64,000 nt of DNA from Rubrivivax sp. (GTDB taxonomy: Bacteria > Pseudomonadota > Gammaproteobacteria > Burkholderiales > Burkholderiaceae_C), in assembly GCA_019635285.1 (NCBI GenBank), contig JAHBZS010000011.1, positions 1 through 64,000 on the forward strand, written 5' to 3'. Positions 34,715 through 50,266 of this stretch are shown piece after piece. How positions within the stretch are numbered: position 1 is the first letter of the stretch; every line of letters starts with the position of its first letter. Below the pieces are notes generated by a model, which was given only the letters and a program-made list of their open reading frames with translations, was not told where the DNA came from and ran no database searches. The translations under genes and the position numbers were made by a program.

Positions 34715-35554
34715 ATGACCGCTGCGCTGCCCTGCCTGACCGATGCCCGCTGCGAAGTGACGCGCACGGTCGACATCGTCGACGCCGCCGGCGCGCGCCG
34801 CACGCTGGAGATCCCCGCCGAACGCGCGCTGACGCTGTACGTGGACAAGCGCGAGCTGGTCACGCTGATGACGCTGGGCCAGGCGCCGGAACTGCTGGTG
34901 CTGGGCTACCTGCTGAACCAGGGGCTGATCGGCGACGTGCATGAAGTGGCTTCGGTCAGCGTCGACTGGGAGGTCGAGGCCGCCGCGGTACGGACGCACG
35001 CCGGCATCGAGCGGATCGAGCAGCGCACCGCGCGGCGCATCGTCACCACCGGCTGCGGCCAGGGCACGGTGTTCGGCGAGCTGATCGACGACATCGAACG
35101 GCTGCGCCTGCCGCCGCCGCGTGATTCGCAGGTGTCGCAGCGCACGCTGCTCGACGTGGTCGAGGCGATGCGCCAGTACCCGGGCGTCTACCGGCGCGCC
35201 GGCTCGGTGCATGGCAGCGCGCTGTTCCATGGCAAGCGGCTGCTGCAGCTGGTCGAGGACGTAGGCCGCCACAACGCGGTCGATACCCTTTCCGGCTGGA
35301 TGGCGATGCACGGCGTCGCCGGCGCCGACAAGCTGCTGATGACCACCGGCCGCCTGACCAGCGAGATGGTCATGAAGGCCGCGCGCATCGGCGTGCCGCT
35401 GGTCGTGTCGCGCAACGGCGTCACCGCGATGGGGCTGAGCCTCGCACGGCGCCTGGGCATGACGCTGCTGGGGCGGGCCAACGGGCGCCGCTTCCTCTGC
35501 TATACCGGCGACGAGCGCATCGTCTTCGAGCCTGAACTGCAGGCGCTGGGTTGA
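34715..35554 (+). CDS. fdhD: FdhD-like formate dehydrogenase sulfurtransferase, single-cysteine variant
   Basis: 279-residue FdhD family protein, which passes sulfur from a cysteine desulfurase to the molybdenum cofactor of formate dehydrogenase. Family blocks: ALTLYVDKRELVTLMTLG near 38-55, ELLVLGYLLNQGLI near 59-72, HGSALFHG and VEDVGRHNAVDTLSGWM, and RLTSEMVMKAARIGVPLVVS. The sulfur-carrying loop is TTGCGQGTVF with C114 only, whereas the E. coli-type loop has two cysteines (C-G-x-C). It begins the oxalate/formate region and would mature FdsA encoded 13 kb downstream. Start ATG 34715; ribosome site weak. Confidence 0.88.
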   Translation: MTAALPCLTDARCEVTRTVDIVDAAGARRTLEIPAERALTLYVDKRELVTLMTLGQAPELLVLGYLLNQGLIGDVHEVASVSVDWEVEAAAVRTHAGIERIEQRTARRIVTTGCGQGTVFGELIDDIERLRLPPPRDSQVSQRTLLDVVEAMRQYPGVYRRAGSVHGSALFHGKRLLQLVEDVGRHNAVDTLSGWMAMHGVAGADKLLMTTGRLTSEMVMKAARIGVPLVVSRNGVTAMGLSLARRLGMTLLGRANGRRFLCYTGDERIVFEPELQALG

Positions 35555-35598
35555 CTTCATTGCCGCTGCATCGCCGGCCTACGGGTTGTCCCGGAAAA

Positions 35599-47471: not shown

Positions 47472-50266
47472 CTGCTCGGGAGACCGTCACCTTCAGCCTG
47501 AACGGCCGCGAAGTCACCGGGCTGGCCGGCGAGCCGATCCTGGAAGTTGCCAGGCGCGAAGGCATCGCGATCCCGCACCTTTGCTACAAGCCCGGCCTCG
47601 ACGCGGTGGGCAACTGCCGCGCCTGCGTCGTCGAGATCGACGGCGAGCGCACGCTGGCGCCGTCGTGCTGCCGCAGCGCCACGCCCGGCATGCAGGTCCG
47701 CACCGACAGCGAGCGCGCAATCAAGTCGCAGAAGCTGGTGCTCGAGCTGCTGCAGGCGGACATGCCTTCAGGCCAGTACACGCGCCACAACGAGGTCGAC
47801 GAGTGGGCGGCGCGCTTGGGCGTCGGCAAGCCACGCTTCGCCGCGCGCGCGCAGCCGGCGCAGGACCTGTCGCATCCGGCGATCGCCGTGCACCTCGACG
47901 CCTGCATCCAGTGCACCCGCTGCCTGCGCGCCTGCCGCGACGAGCAGGTCAACGACGTCATCGGCCTGGCCTTCCGCGGCGATGCCGCGAAGATCGTCTT
48001 CGACATGGACGATGCGATGGGTGCGTCGACCTGCGTGGCCTGCGGCGAATGCGTGCAGGCCTGCCCCACGGGCGCGCTGATGCCGGCGCGCGACGCGGCG
48101 CTGGCCGTCCCCGACCGCTCGGTGCCGTCGGTGTGCCCGTTCTGCGGCGTCGGCTGCCAGCTGACTTATCACGTCAAGGACGACAGGATCCTCTATGTCG
48201 AAGGCCGCGACGGCCCGGCCAACCAGGGACGGTTGTGCGTCAAGGGCCGCTACGGCTTCGACTACGCACACCACCCGCAGCGGCTAACCAAGCCGCTGAT
48301 CCGCCGCAAGGACGCTCCGCCGAAGCGCGGCGACTTCGTGATGGACCCCGAGCGCATCCTGGACGTGTTCCGCGAGGCCAGCTGGGACGAGGCGCTGGAC
48401 TTCGCCGGCGGCGGCCTGAAGGCGATCCGCGACCGCGACGGCCCGAAGGCGCTGGCAGGCTTCGGCTCGGCCAAGGGCAGCAACGAGGAGGCGTATCTCT
48501 TCCAGAAGCTGGTGCGCACCGGATTCGGCAGCAACAACGTCGACCACTGCACGCGGCTGTGCCATGCGTCGTCGGTGGTCGCGCTGCTCGAAGGCATCGG
48601 CTCGGGCGCGGTCAGCAACCCCGTGATGGACGTGATGCACGCCGAGGTGGTGGTGCTGATCGGCGCGAACCCGACGGTCAACCATCCGGTCGCCGCGACC
48701 TTCATCAAGAACGCGGTTCAGCGCAGCACCAAGCTGATCGTCATGGACCCGCGCCGCTCGGACCTGGCGCGCCACGCGCACCGCTTCCTGCAGTTCAAGC
48801 CCGACACCGACGTGGCGATGCTGAACGCGCTGATGCACGTGATCGTCAACGAGGGCCTGGTCGACGAGCGCTTCATTGCCGAGCGCACGATCGGCTACGA
48901 CGAGCTGCGTGCCAACGTCGCCGGCTACAGCCCGGAGGCGATGGCGCCGATCTGCGGCATCGACGCCGAGACGCTGCGCTACGTGGCGCGGCTGTACGCG
49001 CGCTCCAAGGGCTCGATGATCCTGTGGGGCATGGGCGTCAGCCAGCACGTGCACGGCACCGACAACGCGCGCTGCCTGATCGCGCTGGCGTTGATGACCG
49101 GCCAGATCGGCCGAAAGGGCACCGGGCTGCACCCGCTGCGCGGCCAGAACAACGTGCAGGGCGCGTCCGACGCCGGCTTGATCCCGATGATGCTGCCCGA
49201 CTACCAGCACGTCAGCCGCCCCGAGGTGCGCGCGAAGTTCGAGCAGGCCTGGCAGCTCGCACCCGGCACGCTCGACGACAAGGTGGGCCTGACGGTGGTC
49301 GAGGTGATGCACGCGATCAAGCACGGCGTCGTCAAGGGCATGTACGTCGAGGGCGAGAACCCGGCGATGTCCGACCCCGACGCCAACCATGCCCGCGAGG
49401 CGCTGGCGGCGCTGGACCACCTGGTGGTGCAGGACATCTTCCTGACCGAGACCGCGTACCTGGCCGACGTGATCCTGCCGGCCAGCGCGTTTCCCGAGAA
49501 GACCGGCAGCTTCACCAACACCGACCGGCTGGTGCAGATGGGTCGCCAGGCGCTGCCGCCGCCCGGCGACGCGCGCCAGGACCTGTGGATCATCCAGCAG
49601 ATCGCGCAGCGCCTGGGGCTGCCGTGGAACTACGGCCACGTCGGCGAGGTGTTCGACGAGATGCGCCGCACGATGCCGAGCATCGCCGGCATCACCTGGG
49701 AGCGGCTCGAGCGCGAGCACGCGGTCACCTATCCCTGCACGCACGAGGGCGACCCCGGCCAGCCGGTGGTCTTCACCGACCGGTTCCCGCGCGACGGCGG
49801 CAAGGCGCGCTTCGTGCCGGCGGACATCATCCCGGCGGCCGAGCGGCCCGACGCCGAATTCCCGATGGTGCTGATCACGGGTCGCCAGCTCGAGCACTGG
49901 CACACCGGCAGCATGACGCGACGCGCCAGTGTGCTCGACGCGCTGGAGCCGGACCCGACGGCGCAGGTGCACCCGCTGGACCTGGCGGCGATGGGCGCCA
50001 AGCCGGGCGATGTGCTGACCATCGAATCGCGGCGCGGCAAGGTCACGCTGTGGGCGCGCGCCGACGAGGGCACGCCGCGCGGCGCGGTGTTCGTCGCCTT
50101 CGCCTACTACGAGGCGGCGATCAACCGGCTGACGAACGCGGCGCTGGACCCCTTTGCCAAGATCCCCGAGTTCAAGTACTGCGCGATCCGCGTCAAGGTC
50201 GGCGGCGAGCCGCCGCACCAGAGCAGCTACGGCGGTGGGCAGATCCTGGCCGCGATGGCACACTGA
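47468..50266 (+). CDS. fdsA: NAD-linked formate dehydrogenase, molybdenum alpha subunit
   Basis: 932-residue catalytic subunit oxidising formate to CO2. Iron-sulfur order: [2Fe-2S] C39-C50-C53-C67; [4Fe-4S] C146-C149-C152-C156; [4Fe-4S] C189-C192-C195-C199; proximal [4Fe-4S] C223-C226-C230-C257. The bis-MGD domain follows, with Mo-ligand cysteine C365 and H366 in CTRLCHASSV (cysteine, not selenocysteine). C-terminal molybdopterin-dinucleotide domain is complete. Cytosolic, no Tat signal. No fdsD gene follows; the fdhD needed for sulfuration is at 34.7 kb. Confidence 0.96.
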   Translation: MTARETVTFSLNGREVTGLAGEPILEVARREGIAIPHLCYKPGLDAVGNCRACVVEIDGERTLAPSCCRSATPGMQVRTDSERAIKSQKLVLELLQADMPSGQYTRHNEVDEWAARLGVGKPRFAARAQPAQDLSHPAIAVHLDACIQCTRCLRACRDEQVNDVIGLAFRGDAAKIVFDMDDAMGASTCVACGECVQACPTGALMPARDAALAVPDRSVPSVCPFCGVGCQLTYHVKDDRILYVEGRDGPANQGRLCVKGRYGFDYAHHPQRLTKPLIRRKDAPPKRGDFVMDPERILDVFREASWDEALDFAGGGLKAIRDRDGPKALAGFGSAKGSNEEAYLFQKLVRTGFGSNNVDHCTRLCHASSVVALLEGIGSGAVSNPVMDVMHAEVVVLIGANPTVNHPVAATFIKNAVQRSTKLIVMDPRRSDLARHAHRFLQFKPDTDVAMLNALMHVIVNEGLVDERFIAERTIGYDELRANVAGYSPEAMAPICGIDAETLRYVARLYARSKGSMILWGMGVSQHVHGTDNARCLIALALMTGQIGRKGTGLHPLRGQNNVQGASDAGLIPMMLPDYQHVSRPEVRAKFEQAWQLAPGTLDDKVGLTVVEVMHAIKHGVVKGMYVEGENPAMSDPDANHAREALAALDHLVVQDIFLTETAYLADVILPASAFPEKTGSFTNTDRLVQMGRQALPPPGDARQDLWIIQQIAQRLGLPWNYGHVGEVFDEMRRTMPSIAGITWERLEREHAVTYPCTHEGDPGQPVVFTDRFPRDGGKARFVPADIIPAAERPDAEFPMVLITGRQLEHWHTGSMTRRASVLDALEPDPTAQVHPLDLAAMGAKPGDVLTIESRRGKVTLWARADEGTPRGAVFVAFAYYEAAINRLTNAALDPFAKIPEFKYCAIRVKVGGEPPHQSSYGGGQILAAMAH

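Follow-up and report, generated by a model that had tools for sequence, protein, structure and literature searches.

Gene content of the locus

The stretch of DNA analysed here (the window) comprises the first 64,000 nucleotides of contig JAHBZS010000011.1 from a Rubrivivax sp. genome (assembly GCA_019635285.1; 4.9 Mb in 89 contigs, 94.5% complete) and has a GC content of 70.4%. Between positions 34715 and 50266 it carries genes for the oxidation of oxalate through coenzyme A (CoA) thioesters and formate, together with the tctC, tctB and tctA genes of a tripartite tricarboxylate transporter (TTT) that, on comparison with related loci, very probably imports oxalate. The features of the locus are:

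34715-35554, plus strand: fdhD, formate dehydrogenase accessory sulfurtransferase (PF02634, 247 bits; NF001943/TIGR00129 under cut-off)
35599-35612, unstranded: Crp/Fnr box TTGACTGCGGTCAA 5' of tctC, a perfect TTGAC-N4-GTCAA with GAGCAT at offset 23
35719-36756, plus strand: tctC, periplasmic solute-binding protein, proposed oxalate receptor (PF03401, 105 bits)
36844-37365, plus strand: tctB, small membrane subunit (PF07331)
37385-38914, plus strand: tctA, large membrane subunit (PF01970, 500 bits)
38926-39759, plus strand: kinase/BON, a cytidylate-kinase-like and BON-domain protein (PF13189, PF04972)
39797-40405, minus strand: crp, Crp/Fnr-superfamily regulator, proposed activator (PF00027)
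40445-40458, unstranded: Crp/Fnr box TTGACCGCGGTCAA between crp and oxc, a perfect TTGAC-N4-GTCAA with a −10-like TACCAT at offset 24
40524-42281, plus strand: oxc, oxalyl-CoA decarboxylase (NF006721, 995 bits, cut-off 557; TIGR03254, 970 bits, above cut-off)
42312-43559, plus strand: frc, formyl-CoA:oxalate CoA-transferase (NF003809, 768 bits, above cut-off; TIGR03253, 730 bits, cut-off 504)
43580-45712, plus strand: acs, ADP-forming acyl-CoA synthetase with the ATP-grasp part first, proposed oxalyl-CoA/formyl-CoA ligase (PF13549, PF13607, PF19045)
45768-47471, plus strand: fdsGB, fused FdsG-FdsB, NADH-side formate dehydrogenase subunit (PF01257, PF01512, PF10589; 7e5z_B, 772 bits)
47468-50266, plus strand: fdsA, formate dehydrogenase catalytic subunit (7e5z_A, 1280 bits)
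54187-55119, minus strand: lysR, LysR-type regulator (PF00126, PF03466)
55188-55201, unstranded: Crp/Fnr-type box 5' of lysR, with a −10-like GATAGT at offset 24

These gene identities and the presence of the boxes are near certain. The genes named in a first-pass annotation of this DNA are all identified by curated models at exactly the coordinates it gave, its interval running from the start of fdhD to the stop of fdsA. In a profile search, Oxc and Frc both exceed NCBIfam equivalog cut-offs, and TctA, TctB and TctC, encoded in a single run, are all above their Pfam cut-offs. The intergenic distances point to two plus-strand transcription units, tctC-tctB-tctA-kinase/BON (gaps of 87, 19 and 11 nucleotides) and oxc-frc-acs-fdsGB-fdsA (30, 20, 55 and −4 nucleotides). 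In gene order a Crp/Fnr regulator does come before the directional run, but crp is on the minus strand, converging on the kinase/BON gene and diverging from oxc, and so reads in the opposite direction. By its sequence the gene set is a complete oxalate-oxidation module; as to its further use of CO2, an autotrophic one was rejected, no RuBisCO large chain having been found in the genome at its 94.5% completeness. An Rfam scan of the window gave no match. Two genes for TerC-Usp fusion proteins lie 3' of fdsA (50350-51513 and 52435-53694), and several related tct or frc loci likewise have a TerC homologue nearby.

Transporters at oxalate loci

The window Oxc was searched against 399 genomes of the same family (E ≤ 1e-150); 64 genomes matched, its own included, and all 63 other oxc loci of these genomes make up the set of related loci. 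Genes in them were counted by tblastn, because the automatic gene caller missed some (tctA in L043, for instance). The five other genomes of the genus gave no Oxc match, and in a wider sample of the class oxc was found in 3 of 274 genomes, again counting its own. At 37 of the 63 related loci a tctA gene of at least 75% identity lies on the same strand less than 3.5 kb 5' of oxc, with tctC visible in 35 of the 37; the conserved synteny of tctCBA and oxc that the first-pass annotation had proposed as a check is thus found. A further TctA scan was made of named genomes, from which the best 80 of at least 593 confirmed relatives were kept (the named loci). Among these best 80, tctCBA also lies near oxc in Variovorax, Polaromonas, Ramlibacter, Oxalicibacterium solurbis, Xanthobacter and Bradyrhizobium, and oxc is present in 36 of the 55 loci with at least 3.5 kb visible 3' of tctA. 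In four Polynucleobacter-type genomes oxc and tctCBA are separated by tens of kb or are on different contigs, with a Crp/Fnr box at each gene set; the four oxc loci themselves gave no TctA or OxlT match and one 25% TctC-like match, OxlT not having been searched genome-wide.

The protein that most loci lacking tctCBA have in its place is, by its representative, an oxalate/formate antiporter of the major facilitator superfamily (MFS), OxlT (TIGR04259, 666 bits, cut-off 335). Of 56 related loci with at least 4.3 kb visible on the 5' side, 33 have TTT only, 19 OxlT only, one both (L075) and three neither, a mutual exclusion with a Fisher p of 7e-11, uncorrected for phylogeny. The OxlT gene takes the same slot: 17 of the 21 at the 63 loci share the strand of oxc and lie at most 3.5 kb 5' of it. 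Genome-wide, OxlT occurs in 27 of the 64 oxc genomes, namely 5 of the 38 with TTT at oxc, that of the window included, versus 22 of the 26 without. In the remaining four of these 26 no OxlT was found (G600, G636, G607 and G302); G600 and G636 have short oxc contigs, and G607 has a TTT preceded by the Crp/Fnr box (hereafter boxed) on another contig (L206). For the three loci lacking both transporters, one or both are encoded elsewhere in the genome: G426 has a boxed OxlT, G576 boxed copies of both, and G302 a boxed TTT (L190), with no OxlT found. Plotted on the Oxc tree, transporter type has changed 9-11 times, 4-5 of these changes being forced by well-supported branches. In G576, oxlT and tctCBA are adjacent and separately boxed, at a distance from oxc (L189, 4084-8800).

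More distant relatives of the transporter are linked to other oxalate enzymes. TctA gave matches in 98 of the 399 genomes, and the distant set consists of every place where TctA identity is 55-81% (56 in all). None of these 56 stretches contains oxc; within about 9 kb, an oxalate-CoA ligase-like gene (counted when at least 60% identical to a reference ligase) is present in 40 and a PanE homologue in 43. The best solved relatives of the reference ligase are oxalate-CoA ligases, at 430 bits versus 231 for the next kind. Among the 16 distant loci lacking the ligase, L242, L243 and L266 (stretches of 3.5-11.8 kb) have PanE, and L189 and L190 are boxed, the only two of 48 distant loci scanned with a box 5' of tctC. 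The other 11 have a TctC of at most 55% identity and neither gene, so that oxalate enzymes are no longer linked once TctC similarity falls. The first-pass annotation had named regular occurrence of TctCBA-kinase/BON apart from oxc-frc as evidence against its reading; TctCBA without oxc is indeed the rule in the distant set (56 of 56), but other oxalate enzymes lie nearby in 40-43 of these loci. In passages of PMC12686821, PanE2 is used as an oxalyl-CoA reductase, an activity that the PanE homologues of the distant loci may share. The distant TctCBA loci thus resemble the oxalyl-CoA synthetase and PanE2 route, the window locus using Oxc and Frc instead. Its genome has a PanE homologue of 75% identity on contig C67 and gave no oxalate-CoA ligase match in a search run without a positive control. 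The TctC family from about 62% identity upwards appears to serve oxalate generally, combined either with Oxc/Frc oxidation or with assimilation by oxalate-CoA ligase and PanE.

The window has all three TTT subunits, and its TctC has the fold of the binding proteins BugD, MatC, TphC and Bug27. In the AlphaFold model (mean confidence score, pLDDT, 90.8) it adopts the two-lobed Bug fold, and the 17 best Foldseek matches are all TTT binding proteins of the TctC, Bug, TphC or MatC type, at 19-24% identity. Unlike these solved proteins, it belongs to a group in which C235 and C260 are invariant across 45 aligned relatives. Reading the ligand from pocket residues was tried and dropped, identity to solved proteins being too low. 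On a TctC tree the presence of oxc is clustered but not confined to one clade (19 changes versus a shuffled mean of 36), several rows without it being short contigs.

The kinase/BON gene follows the transporter, being found in 18 of the 37 TTT loci and in none of the 26 loci without TTT. In the 399 genomes it occurs in 24, of which 20 have oxc, three have it beside a related tctA and one has a fragment. One of the 20, G468, has it in a second cluster (L205, 7322-19000) that keeps frc, the ADP-forming synthetase and the box, with an Oxc-like protein only 26% identical at the position of oxc; the cluster is possibly a related CoA-thioester pathway for another substrate. In L202 and L203 (genomes G380 and G611), frc and fds genes come after tctCBA-kinase/BON, crp and oxc gave no match there, and neither genome has an oxc match at E ≤ 1e-150.

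The ADP-forming synthetase, whose nearest solved relative is 8wzu (454 bits), alternates with a second frc paralogue (below 76% identity): among 52 loci, 40 have only the paralogue, 10 only the synthetase, two both and none neither. This near-exclusion suggests that both may prime oxalate as oxalyl-CoA; on the Oxc tree it rests on few independent changes (seven), with pairs not significant. In passages of PMC10192776, an oxalate CoA-transferase and a formyl-CoA hydrolase are marked as hypothetical, with no gene known for either. A small PAS-domain protein (L103, 12372-12806, and relatives) is encoded near frc genes in 29 of the 63 loci, and the window gave no homologue of it.

FdsA and the fused FdsGB together form an NAD-linked formate dehydrogenase with a fused beta subunit. 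Their best solved match, 7e5z, and 7vw6, both of which we take to be Methylobacterium extorquens FDH1, have the same two-subunit plan with fused G and B parts; in the window the enzyme sits in an oxalate operon. An fdsA orthologue is present in 12 of 29 TTT loci versus 1 of 16 others (Fisher 0.016). A preferential tie between formate dehydrogenase and TTT was nevertheless discarded as evidence, since several OxlT loci have a more distant formate dehydrogenase nearby.

A common box and its putative regulator

The boxes preceding tctC, oxc and lysR (35599-35612, 40445-40458 and 55188-55201) had gone unmentioned in the first-pass annotation. With up to one mismatch allowed, TTGAC-N4-GTCAA occurs three times in the window, each time exactly, versus 0.56 expected, and one of 100 shuffles reached three. 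The exact form TTGACNGCNGTCAA is found three times in the whole 4.9 Mb genome, always at these positions (one occurrence of the reversed control), and the relaxed form TTGAYNNNNRTCAA 14 times (three of its control). Across the related loci, the palindrome TTGAY-N4-RTCAA is present in all 54 crp-oxc intergenic regions, and the relaxed box lies within 300 bp 5' of tctC in all 33 genes scanned and in 57 of 62 regions of 250 bp 5' of oxc (shuffled mean 0.09). In the rearranged loci L049, L073, L177, L138, L140 and L144 it precedes panE, acs, fdsGB or frc.

At oxc, TANNAT follows the box at 23 or 24 nucleotides (46 counts, from 54 regions) and is absent from every other offset up to 60 nucleotides. 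The centre of the box then falls near −41.5 or −42.5, where a class II activator sits; a −10 hexamer at such fixed spacing implies class II activation of oxc. The tctC promoters have a weaker NANCAT at offset 23 or 24 (24 counts in 33 loci), and 10 boxed oxlT promoters have no −10 element at this offset.

The probable ligand of the box is the product of crp, which has the PF00027 domain, the ETLSR helix (..SAETLSRLK.. in the helix-turn-helix) and a predicted TTGA-N6-TCAA operator, as found in the Crp/Fnr superfamily; its nearest solved proteins are 3dn7 and DNR. With DNR and FNR it shares this operator type and an ExxSR recognition helix, whose residues are presumably those of the FNR contacts. 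Unlike the oxygen-sensing FNR, it lacks the four-cysteine set of an iron-sulphur cluster, having no cysteine (0-3 in 97 relatives), and its gene stands beside oxc, in divergent orientation, in 54 of the 63 related loci. From the observed boxes and their spacing at oxc we infer both binding and sign, and consider it likely that this Crp-like protein activates through the box.

The proposal that all genes form one regulon is supported for the units headed by tctC, oxc and lysR, which have the box in common, but is unsupported for fdhD: this gene precedes the tctC box, and the 63 related loci contain no homologue of more than 31% identity. FdhD plausibly helps the formate dehydrogenase; its gene is not conserved at this place. 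Homologues of lysR (at least 55% identity) lie near 15 of the 63 related oxc loci; naming the protein CbbR or FdsR was rejected (best NCBIfam match CbbR, 242 bits, cut-off 450) and it is left unnamed.

Probable oxalate import and its alternatives

That the TTT imports oxalate is strongly supported by three lines of comparative evidence: its synteny with oxc, its replacement by OxlT at the same slot, and the linkage of related transporters to other oxalate enzymes. Several observations weigh on the other side. Independent pairs contrasting TTT and OxlT are not significant, with none the same, about three opposite and two without difference; they never ran counter to the replacement, but their number is too small for significance. 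In the named loci scanned (from the best 80), a box precedes tctC in 26 of 34 linked to oxc and in 5 of 16 without oxc, and a box lies within 350 bp 5' of oxlT in 10 of 20 cases; at the tctC promoters there is no TATAAT-like peak at the offset. The 19-24% identity of TctC to its solved relatives leaves its ligand residues unreadable. Within the same 80, tctA, oxc and OxlT occur together in L119, L135, L149 and L186, and L170, outside the 399-genome family, has a TctC of the ligase/PanE branch adjoining oxc. The TctA matches of G302 and G576 each contain one in-frame stop. TctC relatives of 66-68% identity occur in three Azospirillum genomes and one Inquilinus genome in which no oxc was found genome-wide and which gave no ligase match, the ligase search having no positive control. 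Finally, the genome of the window itself has an OxlT-family gene (G000:C56:23173-24378; 565 bits, cut-off 335).

An unlikely alternative is that the TTT takes up a compound related to oxalate or a precursor of it, such as glyoxylate, tartronate, oxalurate or an acylpyruvate, for conversion inside the cell to oxalate or oxalyl-CoA. Many distant TTT loci do carry FAH-family hydrolases and PanE-type reductases that could act on 2-oxo acids, but neither gave a homologue in the window, FAH is present at just 8 of the 37 TTT-oxc loci, an oxalate/formate antiporter family occupies the same slot, and the ligase scores far higher with oxalate-CoA ligases than with malonyl- or other ligases.

It is less probable still that the C56 OxlT is the real importer, the TTT having a minor or scavenging role with the same or another ligand. 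The first-pass claim that TTT rather than OxlT is the importer is supported at this locus, where the window has no OxlT homologue, and is complicated by this second gene elsewhere, whose score is far above cut-off. However, the four neighbours tested encode an alcohol dehydrogenase, a short-chain dehydrogenase, a molybdopterin-binding protein and a DUF5666 protein, the surrounding 19.9 kb gave no further oxalate gene, its contig carries none of the 14 relaxed boxes of the genome, and no OxlT was found in 33 of the 38 genomes with TTT at oxc.

Inherited linkage of oxc with a TTT for an unrelated substrate is the least credible explanation: TTT binding proteins abound in this group, Cupriavidus metallidurans having 123 according to passages of PMC2864759, so that chance neighbours are possible, and the Azospirillum and Inquilinus relatives fit it, but the linkage recurs in Alphaproteobacteria (Xanthobacter, Bradyrhizobium, Pseudolabrys) and in rearranged orders, and the box accompanies the genes even when they are separated.

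With the TTT taken as the oxalate importer, TctC would bind oxalate in the periplasm and TctAB would bring it into the cell, where Frc and, as a guess, the ADP-forming synthetase would make oxalyl-CoA. Judging by their enzyme families, Oxc would decarboxylate this to formyl-CoA, Frc would pass the CoA to the next oxalate with release of formate, and the formate dehydrogenase would oxidise formate to CO2 and NADH. Since formate would be burned inside the cell, a formate-for-oxalate exchange would not be needed, and an importer could replace the OxlT antiporter. The dedicated Crp/Fnr-type protein would bind TTGAY-N4-RTCAA near −41.5 and activate the oxc, tctC and lysR promoters.

The module has the same two CoA enzymes as the OxlT-Oxc-Frc system of Oxalobacter formigenes, from which it differs in its binding-protein-dependent TTT, where relatives have an MFS antiporter, and in its linked formate dehydrogenase. 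Energy-driven oxalate uptake has reportedly been described in older work on Cupriavidus oxalaticus. An oxalotrophy operon in this species is mentioned in a section of PMC9476978 that does not list its genes. In passages of PMC2864759, oxalate is among the carboxylates that Bug proteins "might" bind, with no gene or experiment attached, and among the matches listed in a literature search on TTT and oxalate, which most subscription papers lay outside, no member was assigned to oxalate.

A wider reading seems to us evenly balanced: that this TTT subfamily serves many Proteobacteria as their dedicated system for high-affinity oxalate uptake, exchangeable with OxlT and used in two settings, Oxc/Frc oxidation under a dedicated class II Crp/Fnr activator and assimilation through oxalate-CoA ligase and oxalyl-CoA reductase, with the synthetase conserving the bond energy of formyl-CoA or oxalyl-CoA as ATP. 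Comparative evidence supports the locus as a putative new variant of oxalotrophy with a directly testable importer, and gives a named transporter family, regulator and operator for tests in culturable Variovorax. TctCBA would then be a marker of oxalate use that surveys based on OxlT only would miss, in a turnover that bears on soil carbonate formation and plant-microbe interactions.

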